A DNA stretch of 35,629 nucleotides from Thermoplasmata archaeon (GCA_015063195.1 SUSX01000007.1:1-35629), one strand, 5' to 3'. Shown: positions 38 to 15,238, counted from the first letter of the stretch. The notes: a model not told the origin generated them from the sequence alone. A program made the numbers and translations.

Positions 38-628
38 ATGATAATCCACATAGTCGGGGGATTCCTCGGAAGCGGTAAGACCACTCTTCTGATCAAAATG
101 GCTGAGAGATACATGGACAGCGGCAGAAAGGTCGCAATATTGGTCAATGAGATAGGAGAGATAGGTGTAGATGGCGCTACGATCTCCGGAAGTGGATTGA
201 AGACTGTGGAACTTGCAGAAGGCTGTATCTGTTGTTCTTTATCCGGTTCTCTTCAGTCAACAATGAAGGAAATAGAATCCACTATCAATCCTGATGTTTT
301 AATCATTGAACCCACCGGTTTGGCACTTCCGCACAAGGTGGTAGAAATCATTAGGGGAACTGTGGTTGAAGATCACGTTTCCATCATCGGCATCTGTGAT
401 GCAATGCGTTTTGAAACTCTAAGAGAAAAGAAGGAAGAGTTCCTCAGGATGCAGCTGTCAAAATCAGAGCATCTGTTGATCAACAAAGTGGATGTCGCAG
501 ATTTTGAAAAGGTGTTTGAAGTATCCTCTTGGCTTAGACAGATATGTCCCGGAGTTCCGATATTCATGGTCTCCGGTAAAACAGGTGAAGGGCTGGACGA
601 GGCCTTCGCCCAGGCCCTTCTGGTTTAA
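38..628 (+). CDS. CobW/COG0523-like P-loop GTPase, short form
   Basis: This 196-residue protein begins almost at once with a Walker A motif (GGFLGSGKTT, residues 7-16). It has the CICC metal-binding motif of the COG0523 family (about residues 63-66), an IIEPTG segment (about 88-93) and the guanine-specificity motif NKVD (about 149-152). COG0523 proteins are GTP-driven metallochaperones or insertases for Zn, Co or cobalamin synthesis. This one ends right after the GTPase domain, so the usual CobW C-terminal domain is missing. A TATA-like stretch (about 9-15) lies some 25 bases before the ATG and no Shine-Dalgarno is seen, so the message is probably leaderless. Its 3' end overlaps the convergent corrinoid activase by four bases. 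A role in metal or corrinoid handling for the methanol system is inferred from position only. Confidence 0.85.
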   Translation: MIIHIVGGFLGSGKTTLLIKMAERYMDSGRKVAILVNEIGEIGVDGATISGSGLKTVELAEGCICCSLSGSLQSTMKEIESTINPDVLIIEPTGLALPHKVVEIIRGTVVEDHVSIIGICDAMRFETLREKKEEFLRMQLSKSEHLLINKVDVADFEKVFEVSSWLRQICPGVPIFMVSGKTGEGLDEAFAQALLV

Positions 629-2238
629 ACCATCTTGAGTTGATCGTACTTATATACGCCTTCGAGACAGTGCATCTGACATCTGTAGCATGCGGTACCG
701 AGACATCTCTTTGTACTGACCCTCATAGTACCGTCCTCATCCTGGGACAGTGCCTTTTCAGGACATTCGTCTACACAGTAACCGCACTTGGTACATCCGT
801 CGAACTTTCCGACAAGCTCTGTACCGATGTCATCGAGAATAGTAAGGCCGTATTCACCGAGTACTGGGATGTCACGTTCTACGATGCGGTGGACTGTAGG
901 CACACCCTTAGGCTTAGGCAACGGCTGTATTCCGTAGAATGAGAGATTCTGGTTGTATTTCTCCAGAGTCATTCCCTCTTCCCAGTATGCCAATTCCTGG
1001 ATGTATATCTGTTCAAATGTCTTATCGGATGCAAACATCACATGGTTGGATCTTATCTGGTTGGCGATGTCCTGTAATTCATCCAAAAGCTCCGGCTTAC
1101 GCAGAATATCCGTAGCCATTGAAAGTGATGTGTTTCCAATCTGATAGATCGTACCGCATGAGGGAGGGAGCAAACCTATCTCTCTAGCTTTTACAGGATC
1201 TACATACGTTCCCGAAGCTCCTGCCATGTACATGATGTCAAGTTCATCGAACTTGATTCCAGCATGTTCCAGCAATGTGAAGTGTCCGGCTCTCATGGCT
1301 CCGATTGCCTTACACGCTTCACTTATGTCGTGGGAATCTACGTAGACGCCGTCCTGCATAACGCACTTGCCGTTACTGGTTTTTAGTTTTCCTTTACGCC
1401 AGAGATTTGAGCTCATAACGGCAGATACGGCGGCTATGACTCCTGTACCTGTGATTCCCTTGGCCTTGCCGTGCATGGGCCCTTCTTCCATGCACATCTC
1501 CAATCCGAAGTCGTACAGGTCTCCGTCCTGTGCACGGATGTCATCATCGAGTACTTTGCATCTCCATCTGAAATCGTATTCGAGATCGGATATAGCACCG
1601 GGAGCGGCCAGCATTCCGTATTTGATAGACTGTCCTTCCATAGCAGGGCCGGCTGCTGCCGAACCTGTGTAAATCTCGTCCCCTACCTTCAGAGCCATCT
1701 CTGCATTGGTTCCGTAGTCTGTTACGAGACAGTTATCCTTCTGCTCAAGGAATCCGCTCTTGTACATCATTGCCAGGGCATCGGCACCGATTTCATGTTT
1801 GATCGCAGGAGGCACAAGGAGTTCGGTGGAATCAGGAACATCCAATCCTACTGCAGCGGCATTGAATACTCCTGCATCCCTCTTCTGCTGTTTGATGTTG
1901 CGTGCCTCATGGGCATTCTCTCCGGCAAATGCCAGATCATCCACCGGAATTCCCTGGAACAAAGACAGTTGAATGGGATTTCCGCAGATGGCAACCCTTT
2001 CCACCTTATTGGTGTCGACATGAAGGCTTTTGATGACTTTGTTGACAGTATCCATCAGGATGTTATGTGCAAGGTCACTGCCCATGTTGATGCAGAAGGT
2101 CAAATGATCCATGATGTTTGCACCCGGAAGGGGGTGGCATGCAGTCATCGCTGTGGACAGAATCTTACCGTCACTGAGGTCTACGGCATGGGCTCTGGTT
2201 CCACTTGTACCTATGTCTAATGATATTCCGTATGTCAT
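625..2238 (-). CDS. ramA: RamA-like ATP-dependent reductive activase of corrinoid proteins
   Basis: The protein is 537 residues from the ATG at 2238. A GTG six bases upstream is possible, but AGGAG sits 8 bases before the ATG and only 2 before the GTG. The N-terminus (GISLDIGTSGTRAH) is the phosphate-binding loop of an actin/Hsp70-type ATPase. The C-terminus carries two [4Fe-4S] motifs: CTKCGYCVDECP, then a second group within CLGTACYRCQMHC. This is the RamA architecture; RamA uses ATP and low-potential electrons to return Co(II) corrinoid proteins to active Co(I). It starts 15 bases after mtaB1 on the same strand, so it should be co-transcribed with mtaC1-mtaB1. It is the only activase in the window and could serve both MtaC copies. 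Assignment to RamA rather than another DUF4445-type activase rests on length and domain order. Confidence 0.85.
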   Translation of the reverse strand: MTYGISLDIGTSGTRAHAVDLSDGKILSTAMTACHPLPGANIMDHLTFCINMGSDLAHNILMDTVNKVIKSLHVDTNKVERVAICGNPIQLSLFQGIPVDDLAFAGENAHEARNIKQQKRDAGVFNAAAVGLDVPDSTELLVPPAIKHEIGADALAMMYKSGFLEQKDNCLVTDYGTNAEMALKVGDEIYTGSAAAGPAMEGQSIKYGMLAAPGAISDLEYDFRWRCKVLDDDIRAQDGDLYDFGLEMCMEEGPMHGKAKGITGTGVIAAVSAVMSSNLWRKGKLKTSNGKCVMQDGVYVDSHDISEACKAIGAMRAGHFTLLEHAGIKFDELDIMYMAGASGTYVDPVKAREIGLLPPSCGTIYQIGNTSLSMATDILRKPELLDELQDIANQIRSNHVMFASDKTFEQIYIQELAYWEEGMTLEKYNQNLSFYGIQPLPKPKGVPTVHRIVERDIPVLGEYGLTILDDIGTELVGKFDGCTKCGYCVDECPEKALSQDEDGTMRVSTKRCLGTACYRCQMHCLEGVYKYDQLKMV

Positions 2239-2253
2239 GTTCACGACTCCTTA

Positions 2254-3645
2254 TCATATACCGTAATTTTTGATGTTGAAACCTCTAACATCTGCATATT
2301 TTCTGATGCACATGTCCAAGAAAACGTCCTCATCATCAGGCAGTGATTCCAGGTCTCTGATGATCTTGTATAATGTTTCCAACTGTTTTCTGGAGAGGCC
2401 GATATCTTTGTTGTTGTACCCGTCAATCAGTAGTTTCGCTCCGGTAATTCCGGCAGTTCTGGCACGTAGGTAATGGCTGTTTCCGCATTCTATAATGGAT
2501 TTGCCTATCTTCCACGCATTGTCGTATGAGAGAATGTATCCTTCCGGACTTCTTCCTCTGTCTGAGAGGGTGTAAAGATCGCGTAAGGTCTTTTCTGTGC
2601 CTGTGGAGATTGCTGTGTTCATCAGGGAGCATTCGTATCCTATGAGGCCTGCCCAACACTGTACAGAGGTTCCGCCGAACTCATGGCGGTACTGTACGGA
2701 TTCGTTGGACCACATATCTGTAATAGCCGCCGTAAGGTTACCGAAAAGGTCTATATGGGCACAATGGCTGTGTTTCCCTTCGGATGAAATCGGCATGCCT
2801 GTGATTGATTTCACTATCGGACCTTCGTAACTGCAGTCCTTTCCGGGTCCGACGGCTCCGTTCTCGAATACAACGAGTGCAGATGCTGCAGATATGCACC
2901 TGCATACTGCCGAAAACGTCTTCTGTACATCCTTATCCAGATGGCCGCCTGCCATGAACATTACTGTGTTGGAACATGCACAGTTACTGTCCCCTCCAGG
3001 AATAACTCTGTGTTTTTTGCATATTCCGGACAGTTCCTTCCACAAAGATTCCATGTCTTTCGATGCAAGGAATCCTGCTCCGAAGAGGAATGCCGTTATG
3101 TCACCTGTGGTTACGGCATAATCAGACAGTTCCTTCCCACCGAGACTTTCGATAGAAAGGACATCGGCACCGTTTTCACAGGCAACCTCTGCACACTCTA
3201 TGACTTTTTCAGGGCGTCCGTTTGTATCCATTCCTGCCCTGAGGCCGTATGATGCATCTCTGAGGTCGGGAACGGTGTGCCTGACAGCAAGATTGATTCC
3301 ATATTTCTCGTGGAAATTGGTAATGGCTTCTTTCTGTCCGGATACTACAGATGCAGCCAGTCCCAAATCGTCGGACATGGTATGGATCCATTCCGTCTCC
3401 AACTGCAGATTTGGGAATCCCAGATTCACTGCCTGTTTGATACAGTCCTGGGTGATGTATTGGACATATTCCTTTACAAGACGTTCTCTGGAAGATTCCG
3501 CGCCGGGTCTGGGGAGATAGTTGATCTCAGGAATCACGCTTCCCAGACCTACTTTGATTCCCAATCCGTACGAAAGCGGTTTCTTGGATCTGCCGAACGT
3601 CATGTCGTCAGAGGTGGCGTATGCCATCTTTGTGAATCTGGACAT
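2254..3645 (-). CDS. mtaB: Methanol:corrinoid methyltransferase MtaB (copy 1)
   Basis: This 463-residue zinc enzyme transfers the methyl group of methanol to the Co(I) corrinoid of MtaC. The three zinc ligands known from Methanosarcina barkeri MtaB (Glu164, Cys220, Cys269, recalled) correspond to Glu166 (SIESLGG), Cys222 (SNCACS) and Cys271 (KDCSYEG), with identical spacing of 56 and 49 residues. The ATG at 3645 is chosen because GAGGGA lies 6 bases upstream and the protein then opens MSRFTKMAY, matching copy 2 (MAKFTKMAY). The mtaC1 stop overlaps this start as TAATG, which implies translational coupling. ramA follows. Compared with copy 2 it is clearly diverged, for example ENGAVGPGKDC against ECGATGPDKDC. 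Confidence 0.96.
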   Translation of the reverse strand: MSRFTKMAYATSDDMTFGRSKKPLSYGLGIKVGLGSVIPEINYLPRPGAESSRERLVKEYVQYITQDCIKQAVNLGFPNLQLETEWIHTMSDDLGLAASVVSGQKEAITNFHEKYGINLAVRHTVPDLRDASYGLRAGMDTNGRPEKVIECAEVACENGADVLSIESLGGKELSDYAVTTGDITAFLFGAGFLASKDMESLWKELSGICKKHRVIPGGDSNCACSNTVMFMAGGHLDKDVQKTFSAVCRCISAASALVVFENGAVGPGKDCSYEGPIVKSITGMPISSEGKHSHCAHIDLFGNLTAAITDMWSNESVQYRHEFGGTSVQCWAGLIGYECSLMNTAISTGTEKTLRDLYTLSDRGRSPEGYILSYDNAWKIGKSIIECGNSHYLRARTAGITGAKLLIDGYNNKDIGLSRKQLETLYKIIRDLESLPDDEDVFLDMCIRKYADVRGFNIKNYGI

Positions 3646-4430
3646 TAGATTCCCTCTACAATATCGTCCCATGATTCACGGATCTCTCTCCATGAACTTC
3701 CGTTGGATATGGAATCCGCGATCGGAATCGTCTGAGGGGCTTTTTTGGAATAGATTCCCATATCAAAAGATTCGGCGAAATCTCTGTTTACTGCTCCTCC
3801 TGCAACCATGTATGGTATGTCGATTCCCCTGTCCGCAAGCGCCTTGGCGGTTTTGGGGAAAGCACTGAGAGTTACAGTCATCAGTGCTGTACCTGTCACC
3901 ATCATCGGTTTCTCATTGCAGACGGCATCGATTACCTCTTCCGGAGTGACATCCTTACCAAGGTCTATCACAGAATACCCAGAGGATTTCAGCATGGATG
4001 CAGCTATGTTCTTGCCTATGTCATGCGGGTCGCCTTCGGCAACATGCATCACGATCTTTCCTTTAGTCGCAAGCTCTTCGGTCATGACCTTTTCAGCAAT
4101 TGAGATGCCCAATTCCATGACCTTGGATGCCATTATGATTTCCGGAAGATAGTATATGTGATGTGCGTAAAGGTAACTCACAATCTCCATTCCGGTGACA
4201 AGACCTTCGTTCACAATAGTTTGGGGATCTATTTTGAATTGAAGTGCCTTCATCACCGCAGGCCCTACTTCTCTGAAACGCACATATGTCACTGCCATTG
4301 CTATGTTTCTGAGAATCGGGTTTTTGGGCAACATGCGGGACACTATCGATTCGGGCATATTGAAATTTTCAGATTCGATATCGTAGCGACGGTATATCGA
4401 ATTGAAATCAACTTTTGAAGTATCCAGCAC
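3645..4430 (-). CDS. mtaC: Methanol-specific corrinoid protein MtaC (copy 1)
   Basis: This 261-residue protein carries the corrinoid that accepts the methyl group from MtaB. It has a helical N-terminal domain (about 1-120) and a Rossmann-like B12 domain. The B12-binding motif DPHDIG places the lower axial ligand at His136, the same number as known in Methanosarcina MtaC, followed by IDLGKDV and the VTGTALMT segment typical of the fold. The start is GTG: AGGGGAG lies 3 bases upstream, and the protein then aligns with copy 2 (MLDTSKVDF against MIDLNKIDF). It is first in the operon mtaC1-mtaB1-ramA. Its promoter region is shared with the divergent transposase-like gene at 4702. Confidence 0.96.
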   Translation of the reverse strand: MLDTSKVDFNSIYRRYDIESENFNMPESIVSRMLPKNPILRNIAMAVTYVRFREVGPAVMKALQFKIDPQTIVNEGLVTGMEIVSYLYAHHIYYLPEIIMASKVMELGISIAEKVMTEELATKGKIVMHVAEGDPHDIGKNIAASMLKSSGYSVIDLGKDVTPEEVIDAVCNEKPMMVTGTALMTVTLSAFPKTAKALADRGIDIPYMVAGGAVNRDFAESFDMGIYSKKAPQTIPIADSISNGSSWREIRESWDDIVEGI

Positions 4431-4701
4431 ATTCTCCCCTCATGGTTATGATATGGGTCGTGAGGTTATAACAACCTCTAAATTGACCGCTATGGTTTTT
4501 ATTTATACAGTATTTAATAGTTACTATAGAAAAATGTATATCGGGAGTATCATGAGGTTCTTATAAATTAATATTTTAAATTAATTAGTTAATCTATCAC
4601 TTTAAATAATAATTCATAATCATTATTTTTATCGAATAGTATTCAAAAATTCTATGTATAATTAGAATAAGTATATGTATAATATTTGCTTTTATACATA
4701 C
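4431..4701. promoter_or_regulatory. Divergent control region mtaC1 / transposase-like gene 1
   Basis: This AT-rich stretch lies between two divergent starts. For mtaC1 (minus) the TATA candidates are at 4499-4506 (TATAAATA on the minus strand) and 4512-4519 (ATTAAATA), giving a leader of about 45-60 bases. A 17-bp inverted repeat, GAGGTT-N5-AACCTC, at 4462-4478 lies near the expected mtaC1 start point. The hexamer TGTATA or its complement occurs five times (4504, 4535, 4655, 4676, 4693). Two copies of TATGTATAA sit 21 bases apart (4653 and 4674). The second pairs with TTATACATA at 4692-4700, forming an inverted repeat that ends just before the GTG start of the divergent gene. Binding by any protein is inference. 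Confidence 0.6.
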
Positions 4702-6231
4702 GTGTCCTCAATCGTATATCTTAAGAACAAGTCCACAGGCAAAGTGTATGCTTATCTTAATGAATCTGTCTGGGACAGCGAACTTAAGAAATGTGTCTGT
4801 AAAAGAAAATGTCTGGGTCATGTGGATCCTAAGACTGGAGACATAGTTCCTAACAGAGGACAGAAGGACAAGGACTATGCCACGGTAAAGTCCATAGGCA
4901 TATCCTTCTTTCTAGGAAGGGTTGCTGAAAGGATCGGTCTGAGGGACGCCCTGAAACAGGCATTTCCTGATGATTGGAAGCTGATTCTTTCCTGTGCATT
5001 CTATCTGTCTTCGGGAAATACGTATCTCGGACGGACGAAATATTGGTCGATGGACAATGACACTCCGTATGGTAAGATGTTCAATGCACCTGTCGTTGTG
5101 GAGTTACTGCAAAAAATAGATCAAAATGCTCTTTTTTCATTCTTTAGGGAATGGAGAGATAAGTTCGATGACAGTGAATTTTACATGATCAACACATCAT
5201 CTGTCTCATCGCATGATGAAAGGGTGAAGACCATACGTTTCAACGATCTTCCCATCGTGATGGTTGACCCTAAGACTGAGATGTCAATTACATTCAGCTC
5301 AAAAACGGATATTCCAGTATCATACAATATAAACACAAAGAATCCAAAGGATCTGGCAGCTATCAGAAAACTTGAGACTGCAAACAGGTGGTTGGAATAC
5401 AACAGAGTAGTCTACGTTATGGACAGGGATTACTGCAACGATCCTAACATAGACGATCTGTTCAGAGCCAATCATAAGTTCTTACTTAGGGCGCCGCCCG
5501 AGTTTACGTTTGCAAGAGACTCCATCTCACGTGTCAAGGACCGTATAATGGATCTGAACAATTACATGATGATCTCCGGAGATCCGTTCTTTGTCATGTC
5601 ATTCATGAATTATTGGAAGGGAAGGAAGTGTTACGTTCACATCTATTTCAGTACAGACGATGCCGAGAACGAATTCAGTCTGTTCCTGAGTCTGTTGGAA
5701 GAATGTCACAATGAACTCAGAAACAATATCTTCGTCGAGGAACACAAGGAATTCTATGAGAAGTATTTCATCGTCAATGAAACTTCCAGCGGAAGAACGG
5801 TGGAGAAGAACGGAGAATCGATTATGAGGTACAATGATGTTGCCGGATTCCTGGTACTCATATCCAATACAATAAAGAGTCCTGTCAAGGCACTCGAGTA
5901 CTATCTAAGGAAGGACCATGTCCAATCCAATTTCGAGGATCTGAGGAACGAGAAAGACAGAGGCTGTCTGAAACTGTATCTCGATGCCAACTACGAGGGC
6001 AGACTGTTTATTCAGTTCTTGTCACTCATCCTTGTTTCGGAGATCAGAGGCATGATGAAATCCAATGCTCTGCTGAAGGGATTGAGGTACAGTGATGTGA
6101 TGCACGAGATGGGTAACATACGTAAGATTTCCATCCCCGGTTTTAAGACTCCTTTCTACACGAACCTTAACAATATACAGGCTGAGATCATGAAGGCTTT
6201 CGGTATTGATCCAGATCTTTCAAAACACTGA
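4702..6231 (+). CDS. Transposase-derived protein (IS1634/IS4-like), DDE residues substituted, copy 1
   Basis: The protein is 509 residues from a GTG at 4702. An upstream ATG at 4675 is possible, but the GTG start aligns exactly with the paralogue at 9072 (SSIVYLKNKS). The N-terminal block (YAYLNESVWDSELKK...RKCLGHVDPKTGDIV) is typical of IS1634-type transposases. The RNase H-like core is recognisable (NTSSVSS, VYVMDRDYCN, GFLVLISN, then KDHVQSNFEDLR and GRLFIQFLSLIL). Against the family pattern as I recall it (DTTSISS, VMDRGFYS, KDxVExxF), the first Asp is Asn164, the second Asp is kept (Asp241) and the Glu is Gln408. The reading frame is intact and no terminal inverted repeats are seen. This suggests a domesticated DNA-binding protein rather than an active element. 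It is divergent from mtaC1, so regulation of that operon is a reasonable but untested guess. Confidence 0.8.
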   Translation: MSSIVYLKNKSTGKVYAYLNESVWDSELKKCVCKRKCLGHVDPKTGDIVPNRGQKDKDYATVKSIGISFFLGRVAERIGLRDALKQAFPDDWKLILSCAFYLSSGNTYLGRTKYWSMDNDTPYGKMFNAPVVVELLQKIDQNALFSFFREWRDKFDDSEFYMINTSSVSSHDERVKTIRFNDLPIVMVDPKTEMSITFSSKTDIPVSYNINTKNPKDLAAIRKLETANRWLEYNRVVYVMDRDYCNDPNIDDLFRANHKFLLRAPPEFTFARDSISRVKDRIMDLNNYMMISGDPFFVMSFMNYWKGRKCYVHIYFSTDDAENEFSLFLSLLEECHNELRNNIFVEEHKEFYEKYFIVNETSSGRTVEKNGESIMRYNDVAGFLVLISNTIKSPVKALEYYLRKDHVQSNFEDLRNEKDRGCLKLYLDANYEGRLFIQFLSLILVSEIRGMMKSNALLKGLRYSDVMHEMGNIRKISIPGFKTPFYTNLNNIQAEIMKAFGIDPDLSKH

Positions 6232-6276
6232 ATCCGGAGTCATATTCGGACAATAATATTCTGCATTGTAGATGTG

Positions 6277-6299
6277 TCTCCATCCTTTCGGATGGGAGA
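6277..6299 (+). terminator. Possible hairpin terminator after transposase-like gene 1
   Basis: TCTCCATCC (6277-6285) pairs with GGATGGGAGA (6290-6299) across a four-base loop with one bulged G, 46 bases after the stop codon. No T-run follows, so termination is only a suggestion. Confidence 0.35.
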
Positions 6300-6379
6300 T
6301 GAATGCCTTCCGACGAAGAATAGTAGTTGAGGAATTAAATGGGCGCCGGTCAGCTACACATCATGTTAAATTGTTTTAT

Positions 6380-6398
6380 GGGTCGGCTGAGCCGACCC
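6380..6398. terminator. Perfect 9-bp hairpin between convergent genes
   Basis: GGGTCGGCT and AGCCGACCC are exact inverse complements around a single central G. The hairpin lies 21 bases beyond the mtaB2 stop and 148 bases beyond the end of transposase-like gene 1. It is GC-rich in an AT-rich gap and is probably the transcript end of the mtaC2-mtaB2 message. No strong T-run follows on either strand. Confidence 0.5.
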
Positions 6399-6419
6399 AA
6401 CAAGGGTTTAACGGAGGAC

Positions 6420-7817
6420 TTACAGGCCGTAGGAAGCAGGCTTGAAGTTGGGAACTTCGTCTTTGTACTTCCTGACACAGTAGTCGTAGAATTCATCCTC
6501 ACTGTCTGGGAGGGAAGAGAGTTCTTTGATGATGTTGTCGAGAACATCAAGCTGCTTCTTTGTAAGGATGAGTTCTTTCTTGTCGTATCCTTCGCGGATG
6601 ATCTGAGCTCCGGTGATACCTGCTGCTTTTGCACGGAGGTAGTAGTTGTCACCGTTCTCTGCGATTGCCTTTCCGACCTTCCATGCGTTGTCGTATGAGA
6701 GGACGTATCCTTCGGGTCCACGGGTCCTGTCGGATGCCATGTAGAGGTCCCTGAGGACTTTTGCCTGACCGGTTGCGATAGCTGTGTTCATGAGTGAACA
6801 CTCGTATCCGAGTGGTCCCAACCAGCATTGTACTGATGTTCCACCGAATTCGGGGTGGTACTCAACGGATTCGTTGGACCAAACATCTGCACACTGTGCC
6901 ATGAGGTTACCCTGGAGGTCTGCGTGTGCGCACTGGCAGTTCTTTCCTTCCTGTGCTGCAGGCATTCCTGTGATGGACTTGATAATGACTCCTTCGTATC
7001 CACAGTCCTTGTCAGGTCCTGTTGCACCGCACTCCATTGCAACCATTGTCCTTGCTGCGGAGATACACCTTGTGACGGCGGAGAATGTCTTCTGGACATC
7101 GTTGTCGAGCATTCCTCCTGCCATGAACATTGAAACGTTTGCTCCTGAACAGTTGGTGTCTCCTCCTGCTGCGGTCTTGTTCTTCTTACAGATGTCGACC
7201 ATCTGGGTCCAGATGTTCTCCATGTCGATGGATCCGAGGTAACCTACTCCGAAGAGGAATGCGGTGATGTCTCCGTTTGTGACTGCATAGTCTGCGAATT
7301 CTTTTCCTCCGACTGATTCGACTGAAAGAAGGTCTGCACCGTTCTCACATGCGATTTCACAGCACTCAAAGAATTTCTCGGGGTATCCGAACTTTGAGTC
7401 CATTCCGGGCCTGAGTCCGTGGTCTGCCTCACGCTGGTCAGGGATTGTGTGCCTGACTGCAAGGTTGATTCCGTACTCGTCGTGGTATTTCTCTGTGATT
7501 GCTTTCTGTCCTGCTACAACGGATGCTGCCATTCCGGGGACTGTTCCCATCTGTGTGACCCACTCGGTCTCGAGCTGGAGGTCGGGGAATCCGAGTGTAA
7601 CAGCTCTTGTGATTGCATCCTTTGAGATGTAGTCGACGTACTCTTTTGTGATCTTCTCTACTGATTTCTCTGTTCCGGGCCTGGGCGCGTAGTTGATTTC
7701 GGGAATGACCCTTCCTGCTCCTACTTTGATTCCGAGACCGTATGAAACGGGCTTCTTTGCGTGTCCGAAGATCATGTCATCTGCGGACTCGTATGCCATC
7801 TTTGTGAATTTTGCCAT
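6420..7817 (-). CDS. mtaB: Methanol:corrinoid methyltransferase MtaB (copy 2)
   Basis: This 465-residue zinc-dependent methyltransferase uses methanol and the Co(I) form of MtaC. Zinc ligands by family alignment are Glu167 (SVESVGG), Cys223 (TNCSGAN) and Cys272 (KDCGYEG), with the same 56- and 49-residue spacing as copy 1. The ATG at 7817 is preceded by a near-perfect GGAGGTG 7 bases upstream, the strongest ribosome site in the window, and starts two bases after the mtaC2 stop. Codon use is noticeably narrower than in copy 1 (repeated GCA/GCT, CTC, GGA, ATC), which suggests this is the highly expressed isozyme; that is inference. No activase gene follows. Confidence 0.97.
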   Translation of the reverse strand: MAKFTKMAYESADDMIFGHAKKPVSYGLGIKVGAGRVIPEINYAPRPGTEKSVEKITKEYVDYISKDAITRAVTLGFPDLQLETEWVTQMGTVPGMAASVVAGQKAITEKYHDEYGINLAVRHTIPDQREADHGLRPGMDSKFGYPEKFFECCEIACENGADLLSVESVGGKEFADYAVTNGDITAFLFGVGYLGSIDMENIWTQMVDICKKNKTAAGGDTNCSGANVSMFMAGGMLDNDVQKTFSAVTRCISAARTMVAMECGATGPDKDCGYEGVIIKSITGMPAAQEGKNCQCAHADLQGNLMAQCADVWSNESVEYHPEFGGTSVQCWLGPLGYECSLMNTAIATGQAKVLRDLYMASDRTRGPEGYVLSYDNAWKVGKAIAENGDNYYLRAKAAGITGAQIIREGYDKKELILTKKQLDVLDNIIKELSSLPDSEDEFYDYCVRKYKDEVPNFKPASYGL

Positions 7818-7819
7818 GT

Positions 7820-8608
7820 TTATGCACCTCCTACGATGTCGTCCCACTCTTCCCTGATCTTCTTCCAGTCGTATCCTGCGATGATCTTGTCTGCGATCAA
7901 AGGTGTCTGGGGTGCCTTCTCTGAGTAGATTCCGAGGTCGAATGACTCTGCGAAGTCTCTGTTGACTGCTCCTCCTGCGGACATGTAGGGGATTGTGATT
8001 CCTTCTTTGATCAGTTCTTCTGATCCGGTCTTCATTGCTGTCATTGTTGTGGTCATGAGTGCTGTTCCTGTAACGAGGAAGGGCTTGTGCTCCTTGACTG
8101 CTGCAACAACGTCTGTGACTGCAACATCTTTTCCGAGGTCGACGACTGTGTATCCGGATGATCTCATCATAACTGCTGCGATGTTCTTTCCGATGTCGTG
8201 GGGGTCTCCCTCTGCTGCGTGCATGACAACAACTCCCTTTGTGGTTCTTCCACCGGGGATCTGTTTCTCTGCGATTGCGATACCGACTTCCATTACCTTT
8301 GCTGCCATCATGATCTCAGGGAGATAGTAGATGTGCTGTGCGTAAAGAAGACTGACAATCTCCATACCGACAACAAGTCCCTTGTTGATGATATCGAGAG
8401 GTGCTGTTCCTTCCTGAAGTGCCTTCATGACTGCAGGGCCGACCTCTTTGAATTTCATGTACAATACTGCACTTGCAACCTCTTTGAGGATGGGATCCTC
8501 AGGAAGCATCTTTGCTGCGACTGCCTCGGGGGAGTCTGTGTTCTCAGCCTCTGCGTCGTAACGCCTGAGGATTGAACCAAAGTCGATTTTGTTCAAATCA
8601 ATCATCAT
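7820..8608 (-). CDS. mtaC: Methanol-specific corrinoid protein MtaC (copy 2)
   Basis: The protein is 262 residues from the first of two adjacent ATGs (8608 and 8605). GAGGTGAT lies four bases before the first, so 8608 is preferred; starting at the second would put the axial His at 136, as in copy 1. The B12 motif DPHDIG and the VVDLGKDV segment are present. The same frame is open for 45 codons further upstream, but that stretch (lysine-rich, with the TATA region inside it) has no family resemblance and is excluded. A TATA box TTTAAATA on the minus strand at 8721-8728 implies an untranslated leader of roughly 85-90 bases. It is first gene of the mtaC2-mtaB2 operon. Confidence 0.96.
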   Translation of the reverse strand: MMIDLNKIDFGSILRRYDAEAENTDSPEAVAAKMLPEDPILKEVASAVLYMKFKEVGPAVMKALQEGTAPLDIINKGLVVGMEIVSLLYAQHIYYLPEIMMAAKVMEVGIAIAEKQIPGGRTTKGVVVMHAAEGDPHDIGKNIAAVMMRSSGYTVVDLGKDVAVTDVVAAVKEHKPFLVTGTALMTTTMTAMKTGSEELIKEGITIPYMSAGGAVNRDFAESFDLGIYSEKAPQTPLIADKIIAGYDWKKIREEWDDIVGGA

Positions 8609-9071
8609 GCTTATCACCTCAATCCTCAGACAACCCGTGTCATCAGACTGTTGATTGGTGATTGATTTGGTTTTGATATAAACGTTCCAAAAATTCAGAC
8701 TACATTTTTTCTTGATACAATATTTAAACTTTACTATTATCAATCCAGAACTATGCTCTATGTATATGCAACATATACATATGGTTCACACAAAAGAGTC
8801 TCCTCATTTCTTTATAATATATAGATAAAGTATCGTGAAATACATGTAAAAAATGCTATTTATTTCCTATTTTCCGAGTATGTATCGGTAATTTCCTATG
8901 TATAAAACATGTTTTTATTGTATAAAATTATATTATACAAAATATGGTTTTTTAACAGCGTTTATACAGTTTTCTATGTTTGAAAACGTCCGAAAAATAT
9001 GGGATAATGCTAAGAAAAAACCGTTTTTCAGACGAAAGATATAGTTACCAAACCTCCCATATCCTAAGCAG
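8609..9071. promoter_or_regulatory. Divergent control region mtaC2 / transposase-like gene 2
   Basis: This 463-base AT-rich gap holds no gene that I can support. The mtaC2 TATA box is at 8721-8728 (minus). Upstream of it lies a perfect inverted repeat, TATGTATATG-CAA-CATATACATA, at 8759-8781. A second one, TTGTATAA-N7-TTATACAA, is at 8918-8940. TGTATA or its complement occurs six times (8761, 8774, 8899, 8919, 8934, 8963). ATTTCCTAT is repeated at about 8862 and 8891. The same hexamer is enriched in the paralogous region at 4431-4701. A weak TATA-like run (about 9039-9044) lies about 30 bases before the ATG at 9072, and no Shine-Dalgarno is seen there. Confidence 0.6.
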
Positions 9072-10595
9072 ATGAGTTCAATTGTATATCTAAAGAACAA
9101 ATCTAACGGGAAAGTCTATGCATATTCCAATTACAAAACATGGGATTCCTCCAAAGGGAAGTACGTATACAGGAGGAAATGCATCGGCCATCTTGACCCT
9201 GAAACAGGATATATAGTTGAAAACAGAGAAAGAAAAACAAGAGACGGTTCATCCGTACGCAGTATAGGTGCAAACACTGTCCTTTCCCGACTTTCTGAGG
9301 AAACAGGTCTGTCCGAATCATTACAGATCGTTTTTCCGGATGTTTGGAAACAGATTCTTTCATGCGCATTCTTCCTACTGTCTGAAAGAAGGAGTCTGTC
9401 ATCCATAACGCGATGGAAAAAATCACATGAACTTCCTTATGCCGGTGATATTGACAGTAATGAATTGAATTTTCTTCTGAACAGGATTTCCGATGAGGAT
9501 GTTGAAGCATTCCTCAGAATCTGGAGGAAAAAAGTTTCCGATGAGGATGTTGTATATGCAACAACATCATCCATTTCGAGTTATGATTATCTGCATTCAT
9601 ACTACGATCCCGTCATTGCTTCATCCACAGTAGACATCGGAATATGTGCCGGTGCCGGAAGCAATCTTCCCATATCATATGAAATGAGGATGAATACGGT
9701 CACTTCTGAATCAGAAATGGACAGAATCAGAGACGATCACCGGTGGTTGGGGGCAAAGAACATACTTTTCATGCTGAGAAGGGGTGTGTTTGAATCATCT
9801 AATTTTACGGATGCTTTGACAGGGGTTCATAACTGTACTCTGAGATTGCCTAATGATCATCCTCTGTCTTCAGGTGTGATACGCGATATTCAGAATGAAT
9901 TGTTGGATTATCATAATTATGATACTACACATTGGGATCCACAGTTCAGCAAGAGTGTAAAGAAACTTCTGAACGGAAAGAGGGTCAATATCCATGTTTT
10001 CTACAACGCGGACATAGCTGAGAAGGACACGGGAATGTTGCTTACATTCTTGGATAAATGTATGAATGAGCTGATTTCAGGAACTCCGGTCAGAGGCCAT
10101 GAGAGATTTTATGAGAGATATTTCATTACCAAGACCTTGGATGACGGAAGTCTTGAAGTTGAGTTCAACAGCGAAGCAATTATGGATGATACGAACAAAA
10201 CCGGATTCCTGATTTTGGCATCCAATCACCTTAGTGATTCAGGACTTGCATTAAGCTACAATACGCATGCAAAGGATGCTGAAATGTTCATGAGAAATCT
10301 TTGGAACGATGAAGATCACACAGGACTGAAACTGTATCTTCAGCACAACATGAACAGTATGATTTTCATTCGATTCGTATCCATGATTCTTTACTTTTCC
10401 ATAAGCCGTACGCTGAAGGAATATAATCTTACCAACGAGTATTCCGTCGAATCCGTCATGTCCGAACTGAATTCTATAATGAGCGTCGAAACACCTCTAA
10501 GAAAATCACCTTTGATTACAGATCTCACAACTGAGCAGAAAAGGATACTGACTCTGTTCGGAATGACTAATGTATTCGGTTCCGATGAACTTTAA
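9072..10595 (+). CDS. Transposase-derived protein (IS1634/IS4-like), DDE residues substituted, copy 2
   Basis: This 507-residue protein is a paralogue of the one at 4702. By eye the first 51 residues match at about 35 positions (SSIVYLKNKS, GKVYAY, RKC, GH, DP, TG), while the rest matches much less. Aligned to the family pattern from memory, the first catalytic Asp is Thr164 (within TTSSISS), the second is Arg236 (MLRRGVF where VMDRGFY is expected), and a Glu (Glu404) may remain in KDAEMF. Such a protein should not catalyse transposition. The frame is intact over 1.5 kb and the 3' part keeps the usual MIFIRFVSMIL segment. It is divergent from mtaC2, exactly as copy 1 is from mtaC1, so it may be a dedicated regulator. 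No terminal inverted repeats or target duplication are seen. Confidence 0.8.
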   Translation: MSSIVYLKNKSNGKVYAYSNYKTWDSSKGKYVYRRKCIGHLDPETGYIVENRERKTRDGSSVRSIGANTVLSRLSEETGLSESLQIVFPDVWKQILSCAFFLLSERRSLSSITRWKKSHELPYAGDIDSNELNFLLNRISDEDVEAFLRIWRKKVSDEDVVYATTSSISSYDYLHSYYDPVIASSTVDIGICAGAGSNLPISYEMRMNTVTSESEMDRIRDDHRWLGAKNILFMLRRGVFESSNFTDALTGVHNCTLRLPNDHPLSSGVIRDIQNELLDYHNYDTTHWDPQFSKSVKKLLNGKRVNIHVFYNADIAEKDTGMLLTFLDKCMNELISGTPVRGHERFYERYFITKTLDDGSLEVEFNSEAIMDDTNKTGFLILASNHLSDSGLALSYNTHAKDAEMFMRNLWNDEDHTGLKLYLQHNMNSMIFIRFVSMILYFSISRTLKEYNLTNEYSVESVMSELNSIMSVETPLRKSPLITDLTTEQKRILTLFGMTNVFGSDEL

Positions 10596-10874: not shown

Positions 10875-11312
10875 TTATAAATAATACGAATATGCAGTCA
10901 TCCTCAGTACATCATCAATTTCTACTTCCTTAACAAAATTACATTTTTCTAGGGTTTTTTCAAACTCATTAAACCTTCCATTATAAAATGTAATCTTGAA
11001 TTTTGAATACTCTTCATCTTCCAATATTTCAGTCAACATCGATAAAGCCTCTTTTACAAATTCTTTATCATTATGCACTGCGATGATTGTACAGCACATC
11101 ATCAAGGTACTTTTCTCCGGCGTGAGAATCGATAATAATTTGGTTATTTTACCATCAGTTACTTCACCTACGCTTATTATCTTGGATTCAAAGGTATGAT
11201 GTCTCAGAGTATGATAATCTCTGAATAATTCAACATAATACTGATCCTTTGAGGGTAGTTCAAGAAATTCCTGAATATTCTTACAATCTTTCGTTGACAG
11301 CAATTTAATCAT
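10875..11312 (-). CDS. GNAT-like protein, last gene of the peptide-modification operon
   Basis: This 145-residue protein has an alternating strand/helix pattern. Its C-terminal part (TFYNGRFNEFEKTLEKCNFVKEVEIDDVLRMTAY) resembles the end of a GNAT acetyltransferase fold: a short strand, a helix, 'neighbour' strands and a final strand. The acetyl-CoA loop (Q/RxxGxG/A) is not visible, so activity is doubtful. It resembles in outline the C-terminal half of the PqqD-like fusion encoded at 12347. The start overlaps the end of radical SAM gene 1 by 8 bases, so it belongs to the same operon. It may acylate or bind the peptide or leader, or act in immunity; no function is assigned. Confidence 0.6.
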   Translation of the reverse strand: MIKLLSTKDCKNIQEFLELPSKDQYYVELFRDYHTLRHHTFESKIISVGEVTDGKITKLLSILTPEKSTLMMCCTIIAVHNDKEFVKEALSMLTEILEDEEYSKFKITFYNGRFNEFEKTLEKCNFVKEVEIDDVLRMTAYSYYL

Positions 11313-12345
11313 TAATCATCATCTCCATCAACTCTTCATTCTTAAGATCAAGATCATCATCTACAAGGTCCATGTAGAACATACGTCCATGATACAAAGA
11401 AGGCAATTTTGAGAATTTTGAAACGTCAAGAGTATCATACTTTAACAATGTTTCAAATAACTTTTTCAATGAAGATAATTTTTGAATTCCACTGATTCCG
11501 CTGTTTAAATATTTTTTTAAAGGATATTTCCTGATATTTCCTATGACGACAGGGATGTATGGCGAAATCATTATGTCTCCATAAGCATTGATGGAGATAC
11601 TTTTAGACCAATTTCCCTCAGACATGTTTACAATATGGTCTGTTGGGTCACCCCATTCAATAGTCATTGGATATTGATTTGATGAAGATATTTGCTTTAG
11701 TTTACGTGATAATTTCACATAATCTATATCGCTAGGGAAGAATTCTATGATGTTTGTAGCTCTTCCTAATGGCATAATAGGTTGCATTCTGAATGAACTA
11801 ACTCCTAACTCAGATAAGAGCCCTATTAATTCTGGAATATCGCGTATATTTTTAATGGTTGGTGCACAAGCAACACCCACCTTCAACCCTTCTGAATAAA
11901 GATATTTTATAGCATCAATAGCCGAATCAAATGCTCCTTCCTTATTTCTCATCCAATCATGGCTTTCTCTAAACCCATCTACACTTACCTGTATTAAATT
12001 AAATCCGATTTCTTTTAAATTTCTAGATACTTCTGCATCCATCAGAATACCATTTGTGACCATATTCAATGACAAATCTCCAGTATTTTCTCGATTTTTT
12101 AAAATAGATCCCATTTTATACACAACGTCTTTTCTAAGTAGTGGCTCCCCGCCACAAATACATACAGCTAATGGATCTAATTCAACAATCTCTTCGGATA
12201 ATTTCAACAATTCTTCTTCAGATAGTTCCTGGCCTTCAACTCTTGTACCGCTGTTATTAAAGCAGTGTCTACAACGGAGATTACATCTATCTGTAACATC
12301 CACAGATATGACCATAGATATGGGTTTACCGTCTGGATCTAACAT
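11305..12345 (-). CDS. Radical SAM peptide-modifying enzyme 1
   Basis: This 346-residue protein has the radical SAM [4Fe-4S] motif CNLRCRHC (Cys21, Cys25, Cys28), followed by CGGEPLLRK (the GGE SAM-binding motif) and QVSVDG. The C-terminal part has no cysteine cluster, so there is no SPASM or twitch auxiliary-cluster domain. It is a paralogue of radical SAM 2: VSSFRMQPIMPLGRA matches VASFRVQPLLILGRA, and YGDIMISPYIPVVIGNI matches HGNLMLIPYVPLSFGNI. It starts one base after the PqqD-like gene stop. With a PqqD-like partner and a small precursor in the operon, the likely substrate is a ribosomal peptide. Because the precursor has no Cys, thioether chemistry is excluded; epimerisation or carbon-carbon crosslinking would be possible. 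Confidence 0.87.
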   Translation of the reverse strand: MLDPDGKPISMVISVDVTDRCNLRCRHCFNNSGTRVEGQELSEEELLKLSEEIVELDPLAVCICGGEPLLRKDVVYKMGSILKNRENTGDLSLNMVTNGILMDAEVSRNLKEIGFNLIQVSVDGFRESHDWMRNKEGAFDSAIDAIKYLYSEGLKVGVACAPTIKNIRDIPELIGLLSELGVSSFRMQPIMPLGRATNIIEFFPSDIDYVKLSRKLKQISSSNQYPMTIEWGDPTDHIVNMSEGNWSKSISINAYGDIMISPYIPVVIGNIRKYPLKKYLNSGISGIQKLSSLKKLFETLLKYDTLDVSKFSKLPSLYHGRMFYMDLVDDDLDLKNEELMEMMIND

Positions 12346-12346
12346 T

Positions 12347-13120
12347 TTACTCCCTCCAATAATATAACAAATCTATATCTCCTTTTTTCGTCTCGTTTTT
12401 TAAAGTAGTAATTTTCCTAAAACCGATTTTAATTAGAGAATTACATACGATGCTATTGGAAGATAAATTGATTAGGAACGGTTTTTTGATAAGTCCCGAT
12501 ACATACGTGAGCAATTTTACTAGTCTGTCAGCATCATTGTCCTCACAATGTAAAGCTATAATTTCAGAATAATACGAATTTTCTGAAAGAACTAATGTTG
12601 ATATGGGGCGTTCTTTTCTTATTTCAGAATAGGCAATCATAACGCCACTCATCAATTCATATCTGATATTGGTGATAGCAATCTTCTCAATGTTTAAATA
12701 TGCTGATACATAATCAGATTTTTTAATAGATCTTAAAACATACCCAGAATAATCATGAGTACATTTTATGAAACAAGATTCATCATACATGTTATACTCT
12801 GCAAATGGAACTTTATCTACCCATCTAATGATTCCTAAGGACCACATTTCCTTCAAAGCATCCATTATGTCTTGTCTCAATTCATCCTTACTGATTGATT
12901 TACCATAATGATTATAAAGACAATTTACCAAATCGCCCACCGTTTTAGATTTGGAATTCAACAGATTGAATATAATCGTAGATGTTTTATTGAAATATAC
13001 TTTGCCTCGATTAAAATATGTCATTAATTCAGTACATCCTTCTACATTTTTTCTCTTATTGATGCTCGATTTCAGTATTTTTGGCTTCAAACAATCAATT
13101 TCCAGGTAGTTATCATTCAT
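12347..13120 (-). CDS. PqqD-like (RiPP recognition) domain fused to a GNAT-like domain
   Basis: The protein is 257 residues from the ATG at 13120. GGAG lies 7 bases upstream and the preceding radical SAM stop ends one base before the ATG; a longer frame reaching 13165 is not needed. Residues about 33-100 (GKVYFNKTSTIIFNLL...TVGDLVNCLY...DIMDALKEMWSLGIIRW) have the PqqD pattern: short strands, 'T' before the first helix, then three helices. In RiPP pathways this fold binds the leader peptide and delivers it to a radical SAM enzyme. The C-terminal half (from about 115) looks GNAT-like, ending NSLIKIGFRKITTL...DLLYYW, without a clear acetyl-CoA loop. It sits between two radical SAM genes and could serve both. 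Confidence 0.7.
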   Translation of the reverse strand: MNDNYLEIDCLKPKILKSSINKRKNVEGCTELMTYFNRGKVYFNKTSTIIFNLLNSKSKTVGDLVNCLYNHYGKSISKDELRQDIMDALKEMWSLGIIRWVDKVPFAEYNMYDESCFIKCTHDYSGYVLRSIKKSDYVSAYLNIEKIAITNIRYELMSGVMIAYSEIRKERPISTLVLSENSYYSEIIALHCEDNDADRLVKLLTYVSGLIKKPFLINLSSNSIVCNSLIKIGFRKITTLKNETKKGDIDLLYYWRE

Positions 13121-13121
13121 A

Positions 13122-14099
13122 TTAGTTCTCCAAAATAGAAGCTGCCCATGAGGAAATCTCATCATTTACCTCATCCACAGAATTTTCGATTATATCGCAA
13201 GTTTTTAACGATAGTCCATTAAATACAGAATATGAATCCAGGTCCAAGATTTTACTTAAAATTCTCCTAACAGATTTAATTTTATTAACAACCGTCAGTC
13301 CATGTTTACAGTATTCACCTAAGGTATGATTAGAAATGTTTCCAAAAGATAATGGAACATAAGGTATCAACATCAAATTGCCATGATCATCTATTGATAT
13401 CATTTCAATCTGATCAGCATTTATCAAATGATCCATATAATCGACAGGATTTTTCCATTCAATCAGACAATCATAGTCTTCTCCTAGTCTATCAATAATT
13501 TTTCCAAATTTTATTATTTGAGCATCATTCAATATATAATCACTCATATGCTTGGCACGGCCAAGAATTAACAACGGTTGCACTCTGAACGAAGCGACTC
13601 CTAATTCCGAAAATTTTTTTACAATATTTTCAAAACAGTTGAAATTTAATGTATTGGGGATGAATGATATGGAGACTTCGACATCATTATTCAATAGGTG
13701 TTCAACCGACTCCGATGCCCTTGCATAAGCATAATCTGAACACCTCAACCAATTATGTTGAATTTCATTACCATCTATACTTACCTGAACTGCGTCTATG
13801 CCTGAATTTTTCAGATTTTTTGCAACCTGATTCGAGATTAATATTCCATTTGTAGTTAATGATACAGTTTCTGCATACTTCTTCAAAATTTCAATCATAC
13901 TGAGTACTGTGTTCATTCTCAATGTAGGTTCTCCACCACATAAACATACATTTTTTGCTCCAATCGATTCGATCGATTCACATAAGTTTATCAAAGTCGA
14001 ATCACTCATTGAATCAACAATATTTTTACCACTTTGATTAAAACAATGTTTACATTCAAGGTTACACCTATGCGTTACGTCAATTGAAATATATTTCAG
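13122..14099 (-). CDS. Radical SAM peptide-modifying enzyme 2, non-standard start or 5' frameshift
   Basis: The first in-frame ATG (14009) lies after the catalytic motif. Reading upstream in the same frame gives LKYISIDVTHRCNLECKHCF, which contains the complete CxxxCxxC cluster motif, back to a TGA at 14118-14120. There is no ATG, GTG or TTG in that stretch. The CTG at 14097-14099 is preceded by GTGGTGAT with the same spacing used by neighbouring genes, and would give 325 residues starting (M)KYISIDVTHRC. Alternatively, an ATG overlaps the upstream stop (14119-14121), and a one-base loss just after it would join it to this frame. GGEP follows the motif as in radical SAM 1. There is no auxiliary Fe-S domain. 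It is probably functional given the long intact frame. Confidence 0.75.
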   Translation of the reverse strand: MKYISIDVTHRCNLECKHCFNQSGKNIVDSMSDSTLINLCESIESIGAKNVCLCGGEPTLRMNTVLSMIEILKKYAETVSLTTNGILISNQVAKNLKNSGIDAVQVSIDGNEIQHNWLRCSDYAYARASESVEHLLNNDVEVSISFIPNTLNFNCFENIVKKFSELGVASFRVQPLLILGRAKHMSDYILNDAQIIKFGKIIDRLGEDYDCLIEWKNPVDYMDHLINADQIEMISIDDHGNLMLIPYVPLSFGNISNHTLGEYCKHGLTVVNKIKSVRRILSKILDLDSYSVFNGLSLKTCDIIENSVDEVNDEISSWAASILEN

Positions 14100-14117
14100 G
14101 AAATCACCACACTTATG

Positions 14118-14786
14118 TCATGGATTTTGTTTTTCCGTTTTCACAATCAGCAGAGATATAACTGAAATAATGGCGACTGTGATCATCACAAATATTAGCC
14201 GCATTAAATCATCATCAATATACAGCGATCCTGTTAAAATAAAAAATCCGGCATAAATCATTACAACTCCAGTTTTTTTGTTAACTGTTGACCACATTTT
14301 CTCATTAGATAATGTATCAGTAGTCCTCAGGCCTAGCCATACGTTGGGTTTAACAAATCGCATCATAATCCCGCCAACAATAAAAATAATCGAGACTACA
14401 GCTGGTACCAAAAATAAATTTTTGAAAACATTAAAATTCAACTCAGAATTGGAAATAATTAGGGCATATGAGAATACCCATGAAAAATAGGATACTATTA
14501 CAGTTGTTACCGAGCAAGAGCTATAATTCCGATCATATAGTCCATTGTATTTTTTTTGAGATACGTGATACTTTAAAAAAGTAAATATTGAAGTAAAAAC
14601 GATGGCAAAAATCGGGAATATGAATAATAGGGGGTGATATTTTGAGACGAATGTGTGTGGTTCAAAATTACTGTCAAAATCAGATGGTATGGAATCTGGT
14701 AATAAAGCAGTTATTACCAAGTGAATTAGCAGCAATAATATGGATGAACCAATCGCAATTTTATCGATTTTGATTATGTCCTCCAT
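14118..14786 (-). CDS. SdpI-like membrane protein, probable peptide immunity
   Basis: The protein is 222 residues from the ATG at 14786, which has a G-run 5 bases upstream; a TTG at 14807 is an alternative. The N-terminal segment LPDSIPSDFD resembles the DUF1648 motif. The segment WLGLRTTDTLSNEKMWSTVNKKTG matches the SdpI signature recalled from Bacillus (GIRTPWTLSNxxVWxxTHRxxG). About six hydrophobic membrane segments are visible. SdpI protects Bacillus subtilis against the secreted toxin SdpC and also controls the regulator SdpR. Placed directly after the precursor gene, it is best read as self-immunity against a membrane-active peptide. Its TGA stop overlaps an ATG by three bases, next to the start problem of radical SAM 2. 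Confidence 0.75.
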   Translation of the reverse strand: MEDIIKIDKIAIGSSILLLLIHLVITALLPDSIPSDFDSNFEPHTFVSKYHPLLFIFPIFAIVFTSIFTFLKYHVSQKKYNGLYDRNYSSCSVTTVIVSYFSWVFSYALIISNSELNFNVFKNLFLVPAVVSIIFIVGGIMMRFVKPNVWLGLRTTDTLSNEKMWSTVNKKTGVVMIYAGFFILTGSLYIDDDLMRLIFVMITVAIISVISLLIVKTEKQNP

Positions 14787-14815
14787 ATCTGCCCCCCATT
14801 CTTTCAATATTTAAT

Positions 14816-15037
14816 TCATTCCGAATCTGCACTGTATACGATGGTATCTGCTACTATGATTTCAACCAATGCAGTAGATACAGCTACTAAAGCTACTGCT
14901 GTGGCAATGGTAATCGATACAGCAACCGCCTGTGCTGTAATGGTGGCTGGAGATACTAAAAATGGTACGATTAAACCTGTCGGATCTGCGTCACCACCTT
15001 CTGGTATAACCAATGGTTTTTCATATTCTTCTGACAT
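14816..15037 (-). CDS. Candidate RiPP precursor peptide, 73 residues, cysteine-free
   Basis: The start is the ATG at 15037, preceded by GGTGAT four bases upstream; a longer frame to 15070 runs through the promoter. Residues 1-21 (MSEEYEKPLVIPEGGDADPTG) are charged and leader-like. From about residue 22 the sequence is almost entirely V, I, L, A, T and S, with striking alternation of small and branched residues in the middle (AVAVSITIATAVAL, 37-50), ending YSADSE. There is no Cys, Lys, Arg or Trp after residue 7. It is first in the operon with an SdpI-like protein, two radical SAM enzymes and a PqqD-like protein. A modified membrane-active peptide is the simplest reading. The cleavage site is unknown; the GG at 14-15 is one candidate. 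Confidence 0.7.
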   Translation of the reverse strand: MSEEYEKPLVIPEGGDADPTGLIVPFLVSPATITAQAVAVSITIATAVALVAVSTALVEIIVADTIVYSADSE

Positions 15038-15238
15038 GGGTATCACCAGAAACATTATTTTCGTAATCAATATTTATATATGCTTTGTGTAAGTACTTAC
15101 CAACTATCGAAAGATAGATTGTTTTTTTAAAGAATCACCATAAAGACAATAGACACATAATTTTGTCTGACATCTGACACAGTTGCAATCAAAGAATACA
15201 GATAGTTTATAAATAATTACATTAGATTTTTGATTATA
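15038..15238. promoter_or_regulatory. Divergent control region of the peptide locus
   Basis: The precursor promoter has a TATA box TATATAAATA on the minus strand at 15071-15080, about 35-43 bases before its ATG. Immediately upstream is a perfect 12-bp palindrome GTAAGTACTTAC (15089-15100), then a short hairpin CTATC-GAAA-GATAG (15104-15117). TCTGACA is repeated in tandem at 15166-15172 and 15173-15179. On the plus strand TTTATAAATA (15206-15215) sits about 28 bases before the ABC gene ATG, so that message is probably leaderless. The palindrome is a plausible operator for the TetR protein at 16869; this is inference. Confidence 0.6.

Follow-up and report, generated by a model that had tools for sequence, protein, structure and literature searches.

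Why should two methanol methyltransferase operons of an archaeon each face, across a long intergenic region, a gene for a transposase-like protein? The question arises from a 35,629-nt stretch of Thermoplasmata archaeon DNA (the window), which is contig G000:C69 of a 1.19-Mb genome in 93 contigs; the GTDB-named relatives of this genome are Methanomassiliicoccales from rumen, goat, sheep, deer and horse gut. An initial annotation had read both mtaC genes as divergent from an intact IS1634-like gene, an arrangement borne out by the gene map, in which mtaC1 and mtaC2 lie on the minus strand and the opposing genes, here called TPN1 and TPN2, encode 509 and 507 residues:

38-628, plus strand: CobW-type GTPase, often adjoining ramA and mtaCB in the family (domain match, neighbourhoods)
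625-2244, minus strand: ramA, corrinoid reductive activase (TIGR04270, 734 bits)
2254-3672, minus strand: mtaB1, methanol methyltransferase (PF12176, 623.8 bits)
3645-4430, minus strand: mtaC1, methanol corrinoid protein, divergent from TPN1 (B12-binding; MtaC HMM 269.6 bits, under the equivalog cut-off of 450)
4702-6231, plus strand: TPN1, catalytically inactive IS1634-type transposase, 509 aa, GTG start, frame intact (HMM, alignment, TPN clade)
4702-4854, plus strand: TPN1 N-terminal beta-rich block, residues 1-51, DNA-binding role inferred (identity, predicted strands)
6420-7847, minus strand: mtaB2 (gene call, neighbourhood comparison)
7820 to ~8608, minus strand: mtaC2, divergent from TPN2 (75-84% identity with relatives)
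9072-10595, plus strand: TPN2, paralogous inactive IS1634-type transposase, 507 aa, ATG start, frame intact (HMM, alignment)
9072-9224, plus strand: TPN2 N-terminal block, residues 1-51, DNA-binding role inferred (35/51 identical with TPN1)

TPN1 and TPN2 are the sole TPN copies in this genome, and genuine IS1634 elements are present at other places in it. TPN1 meets the NCBIfam model NF033559 (IS1634) with 138.8 bits against a cut-off of 100, while TPN2 alone, at 82.7 bits, misses it. That the two proteins are paralogues, as had been proposed from a comparison by eye, is confirmed by 33% identity overall and by the translations, on which 35 of residues 1-51 were counted as identical. Alignment with intact IS1634 transposases likewise upheld the catalytic substitutions that the initial annotation had named from the family pattern: N164 and Q408 replace the catalytic D and E in TPN1, which retains D241, and T164 and R236 replace both Asp residues in TPN2, which retains E404. 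Across the family, the first catalytic Asp is found in 0/31 TPNs versus 13/13 genuine IS1634 relatives, its position being taken by S, N, H, Y, A, T, R, M, I or L, while the second Asp is retained in 25/31 and the Glu in 8/31. Since an intact DDE triad, sought by alignment, is absent from all 31 members, the earlier claim of inactivation stands, and the possibility that intact catalytic residues had merely been misread is ruled out by the alignment with genuine ISs.

The AlphaFold model of TPN1 (pLDDT 86.9, pTM 0.79) finds its best structural match in the PDB in Tn5 transposase (E 2.4e-7), with the Tn5 inhibitor matching as well; a sequence search of the PDB returned no relatives of TPN. As modelled, N164 lies in the first core strand (159-168), D241 right after strand 235-240 and Q408 in helix 394-410, at the places expected of a DDE triad. 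Three N-terminal strands are predicted (E3-8, E15-25 and E30-41). The N-terminal block of the TPNs is common to intact IS1634 ISs, and we infer, without binding data, that it is the DNA-recognition part.

The proteins belong to a family that is a single one, has one origin and is CATALYTICALLY dead. In a tree that includes the nearest intact relatives, the 31 full-length TPNs form one clade (UFboot 100 / SH-aLRT 99) with all intact ISs outside it. Among 147 genomes of the order, TPN is confined to one taxonomic family, its carriers being Methanomethylophilaceae-type gut archaea, and a phylum-wide sample of 390 genomes yielded no further carriers. Each carrier has one or two copies at a conserved locus, with neither variable copy number nor scattered insertion. 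No TPN was found on plasmids, where the matches are intact bacterial ISs only, or in phages; carriage by a viral contig was also rejected, the single viral-contig match (L209, see below) being an intact IS. All 31 reading frames are open and full length, and omega (NG86) in 11 close pairs is 0.05-0.31 for the whole protein and, where computable, 0.02-0.11 for residues 1-51, values that are rough because several dS exceed 1. Mean pairwise identity is 0.68 in residues 1-51 versus 0.20-0.40 elsewhere, and is lowest (0.20) in the stretch with the lost first Asp. Thus the dN/dS comparison suggested in the initial annotation indicates purifying selection that is strongest in the N-terminal block, and the family has what is expected of a domesticated transposase: a single origin outside its mobile relatives, immobility, purifying selection and loss of catalysis. 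Many of the genomes are MAGs, and the counts given here are of related sequences, not of independent events.

A survey of related genomes had been proposed as a test of the pairing with mtaC, which proved to be conserved. Among 34 TPN loci in 26 genomes (contig-end fragments included), TPN is divergent from mtaC across a shared intergenic region in 31, distributed over four genera (12 in the window's genus, 2 in g12, 15 in g10 and 2 in g5); in both g5 cases the contig breaks within the mtaC N-terminus. The three exceptions are all from g5, two facing ramA and one lying at a contig edge. When 60 other mtaC regions of the order were inspected, TPN was present only in two from genome G115, where the contig end cuts it off directly after the first codons. 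TPN-linked mtaCs fall in two separate groups of the MtaC tree, and the pairing therefore arose, or was transferred, at least twice. Many related mtaCB operons function without any TPN, and no other regulator gene could be identified at such loci, whose neighbours (CobW, a His-rich protein, RamA, a cobyrinate synthase-like protein and unrelated genes) include no shared regulator. A GGATN6-9ATCC palindrome lies 15-105 bp upstream of mtaC at 28/62 TPN-free loci versus 0/27 TPN-linked ones (Fisher p 3e-6, without phylogenetic correction).

Upstream of both TPN1 and TPN2 we also noted a three-part repeat that the initial annotation had missed. In the window it takes the following form, together with an additional palindrome:

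4653-4700, no strand assigned: TPN1 three-part element, inferred operator, ending right before the TPN1 start codon (motif analysis); half-sites TATGTATAA at 4653-4661, TATGTATAA at 4674-4682 and inverted TTATACATA at 4692-4700
8759-8781, no strand assigned: extra palindrome TATGTATATGCAACATATACATA between mtaC2 and the TPN2 element, a speculative site seen in this genome only
8897-8940, no strand assigned: TPN2 three-part element (motif analysis); half-sites TATGTATAA at 8897-8905, TTGTATAA at 8918-8925 and inverted TTATACAA at 8933-8940

The consensus, TATGTATAA-N11/12-TATGTATAA-N6-10-TTATACA, is located just upstream of TPN, with its two direct half-sites and one inverted half-site at about -50, -30 and -13 from the start codon; the TPN2 element occupies the positions 131 to 175 bp upstream, and that of its counterpart in genome G114 likewise lies 175 bp upstream. 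The full element is present in 25/31 TPN members. In the TPN1 subclade, six members show just a single clear half-site, and three of them nonetheless face mtaC. Chance does not account for the repeat at 4653-4700 and 8897-8940: all 18 exact occurrences of the pattern in the 147 genomes are at TPN loci, and the reversed pattern, used as a control in the same genomes, has none. Similarly, the core 8-mer occurs 7.6 times per kb upstream of TPNs, 0 times downstream and 0.04 times in the overall background, its density at the mtaC loci classed as lacking TPN, a set that includes the two G115 fragments and G085, being 0.39 per kb. A general promoter motif was excluded, the three-part pattern being absent elsewhere in the 147 genomes, as was a wider regulon in the window genome, where a search returned the two TPN elements and otherwise 3-mismatch noise. 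No Shine-Dalgarno sequence is visible in most TPN members. Within the shared region of 160-460 bp, the element adjoins TPN and is roughly 100-300 bp from mtaC; because it abuts TPN and is distant from mtaC, the evidence is stronger for autoregulation than for mtaCB control.

Intact relatives of TPN point to the source of this element. No terminal inverted repeats (TIRs) were found flanking TPN1 or TPN2, as the initial annotation had maintained, and no target duplications either, nor does any member carry the element motif downstream of TPN, and a recent IS insertion was discarded on these two grounds. In the nearest in-order IS, that of G043, a perfect TIR of 12 bp and a direct repeat of 6 bp are present. 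The closest intact relative, on the IMG/VR contig L209, is 34% identical to TPN1, closely resembles it in the N-terminal block, has the complete catalytic triad and ends in the terminal repeats ATCCTAATCTCCCGAAATTGTTATACATAGGT and ATCCTAAAATCCCGTATCAATTATACATATGT; the branch that unites it with the TPNs is weak (84/39), the TPN clade itself being firm. The inner part of both L209 TIRs is TTATACATA, identical with the TPN half-site, and two more copies lie in the promoter of the L209 transposase. The TPNs are without the outer CCTnnnTCCCG part of the repeat. In the 70 bp that precede the transposase start, the inner repeat recurs in L209, Aliarcobacter, Carnobacterium and G043 (shuffle p <=0.03 in 7/8 tests and 0.10 in one), and its presence in the promoters of four intact relatives makes it very likely that the motif cluster was autoregulatory before domestication. 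As the half-site equals the inner TIR of L209 and the inner repeat stands in intact promoters, TPN seems to have given up catalysis and the outer ends but preserved the circuit by which the transposon, through DNA binding, regulated itself.

Part of these data would also fit other roles. TPN might be an anti-transposon factor that blocks invading ISs related to it by occupying their ends, in the manner of Tn5 Inh, a truncated product of an active element, against Tn5, its position at mtaC being incidental. The identity of its half-site with the inner TIR of an intact relative would suit such a role, as would the fold, which is nearest that of Tn5 transposase and also matches the Tn5 inhibitor. 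We nevertheless consider it unlikely, since the exact element is unmatched elsewhere in the 147 genomes and TPN is not followed by a second end, so that no resident target IS with these ends is seen, and since the mtaC linkage at 31/34 loci in two mtaC lineages would be left unexplained. Equally improbable, in our estimate, is that TPN regulates only itself or distant genes and travels with mtaC by cassette co-transfer: the location of the element at the TPN start codon and the own-genome search, with two TPN sites and noise only, speak for it, yet a purely self-regulating protein gives no reason for purifying selection, the linkage recurs with two separate mtaC clades, and the promoter palindrome is missing at TPN-linked mtaC only.

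That TPN is a decaying IS relic hitchhiking next to mtaC, for which one could cite the vanished catalytic residues and TIRs, has hardly anything left to recommend it, given 31/31 full-length frames, an omega far below 1 in every pair and conservation of the element. We accord just as little credence to an active recombinase whose chemistry has changed and which inverts or cuts out the mtaC locus; the second Asp is indeed retained in 25/31 members, but the first is replaced by at least 10 different residues, no paired ends flank the locus and inverted variants of it were not seen.

We therefore favour, with a probability of roughly three in four, the reading of TPN as a DNA-binding protein that controls both its own gene and the neighbouring mtaCB operon, in which binding, autorepression and mtaCB control are inferences made without binding, expression or knockout data. 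Its parts are unequally secured. Retention of domesticated transposases as DNA-binding proteins, the core of the initial proposal, is well supported by the loss of the DDE residues, the absence of TIRs, the mtaC pairing, purifying selection and a candidate site corresponding to an intact relative's inner TIR, binding itself not having been shown. Regulation of mtaCB, in contrast, is inferred from where TPN lies, from the intergenic region that the two have in common and from the disappearance of the other promoter palindrome, with no data on transcription or binding. Counting against the favoured reading are also the six members with a single clear half-site, the facing of ramA by a TPN in g5 and the many mtaCB operons that have no TPN. 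A disabled transposase and the DNA sites it recognised were kept for a long time beside the methanol genes, most likely as a home-made switch.

In the sequence of events that we envisage, an IS related to the L209 element would have become a neighbour of mtaCB in the ancestry of some Methanomethylophilaceae. Its first catalytic Asp would have disappeared, in some members also the second Asp or the Glu, and so would the outer terminal repeats required for cutting, the N-terminal DNA-recognition block and the promoter cluster of inner repeats presumably being retained by TPN. The protein would then bind the TATGTATAA half-sites, two direct and one inverted. The second half-site, at -30, would occupy the place where a leaderless archaeal transcript is expected to have its TATA box, because of which binding should repress TPN itself. 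Located in the intergenic region common to TPN and mtaC, the complex should influence mtaCB as well, setting transcription of this divergent operon with a sign and an effector that remain undetermined. The most far-reaching version, that the complete self-repression circuit of a bacterial-type transposon was captured in gut archaea and made into a specific methanol-gene regulator, with two mtaC lineages and in replacement of an older palindromic operator, we regard as evenly balanced between right and wrong.

Methanomassiliicoccales are major methyl-reducing methanogens of ruminants and people, and we know of no regulator of their methanol methyltransferases; TPN is now a specific candidate, with a delimited site of 44-48 bp to which binding is inferred. 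The Msr proteins of Methanosarcina are HTH/FilR1-type. MsrA to MsrE regulate mtaCB there (PMC11218639), so that operon type and proposed role are as for TPN. Neither TPN1 nor TPN2 has a Pfam match to FilR1 (PF08350), and Msr/FilR1 proteins were dismissed as regulators here, FilR1 occurring in 1/147 genomes of the order and not in the window genome. Tn5 transposase and Inh (PDB 1muh, 1b7e), the best structural match, share with TPN the DDE fold with a beta domain inserted before the Glu helix, whereas identity is 11%, the active triad is lacking in TPN and the N-terminal block is another one. Transposon-derived proteins turned transcription regulators, as proposed for TPN, include the plant factors FHY3/FAR1, which derive from MULE transposases (PMC13306707), and phage TldR, a TnpB-derived RNA-guided regulator (PMC13418256), but neither is a prokaryotic DDE transposase with an inherited inner-TIR operator. 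A review of prokaryotic exaptation lists, in the portion available to us, HTH and RHH regulators from mobile elements and there describes no DDE transposase turned regulator (PMC8987985); we found no earlier description of the TPN family in the literature searched, which left most subscription papers outside its scope. The closest comparison remains that with the IS1634 transposases (NF033559; L209, Aliarcobacter cibarius WP_151029473.1, Carnobacterium WP_034558278.1 and G043:C146), which are homologous to TPN over the full length (~24-34% identity) and have in common with it the N-terminal block and the type of inner-repeat motif in the promoter, the L209 element even sharing the identical half-site TTATACATA in both its ends. 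Unlike these elements, the TPNs lack the first Asp and TIRs and are single copies at one syntenic locus, vertically retained. As the promoters of the intact relatives already carry the motif inferred to be bound, the step from selfish to host control needed only the loss of cutting, and the family documents with unusual completeness how a DDE transposase may become a prokaryotic host regulator.

At locus L139 (genome G085), mtaC belongs to the TPN-linked mtaC clade and is preceded by relics (ATCAATGTATAATTATCAAATTATACAA) of the three-part repeat element, the putative operator, but the gene for TPN, the inactive transposase-like protein, is absent and has probably been lost recently. At L037 and L039, in genomes of genus group g5, it is ramA rather than mtaC that faces TPN1, with a single half-site left of the TPN1 element.

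Among TPN-free mtaC loci of Methanomethylophilaceae, 28 of 62 (L104, L112, L120, L126, L128 and L134, for example) carry a GGATN6-9ATCC palindrome (GGATGGATGnTATATCC-like) 15-105 bp 5' of mtaC, adjoined by a TATA-like sequence, making this palindrome a candidate site for another, unidentified regulator. The window contains an additional palindrome, TATGTATATGCAACATATACATA (8759-8781), between mtaC2 and the TPN2 element and ~150 bp 5' of mtaC2; relatives were not seen to have it.

In the MtaC tree, MtaC1 (window 3645-4430) sits on a long branch (0.65), as does its counterpart in genome G114; the first mtaCB copy is evolving rapidly and may have a different substrate or role.

Many genomes encode, between CobW and RamA, a protein combining a conserved domain with an extended tail rich in His and Cys. 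It may serve corrinoid methyltransferases as a metal (cobalt?) chaperone; several TPN-carrying g10 genomes lack it at this position. Examples, among others, are:
L104:5410-6120, His/Cys-rich-tail protein
L128:6598-7239, His/Cys-rich-tail protein
L134:6576-7226, His/Cys-rich-tail protein

Elsewhere in the window, two radical-SAM-like proteins are encoded together with small proteins, GNAT-like ones among them, and an ABC transporter comes next, in what looks like a peptide-modification cluster (10875-16858):
window 15230-16858, bacteriocin-export-type ABC transporter

Among intact relatives, the one nearest to the TPN family is an IS1634-type element:
L209:86-1829 (IMGVR_UViG_3300006217_002249), intact IS1634-type element
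It is inserted in an apparent phage of a Gram-positive host, with a lysin and further phage-like genes close by.
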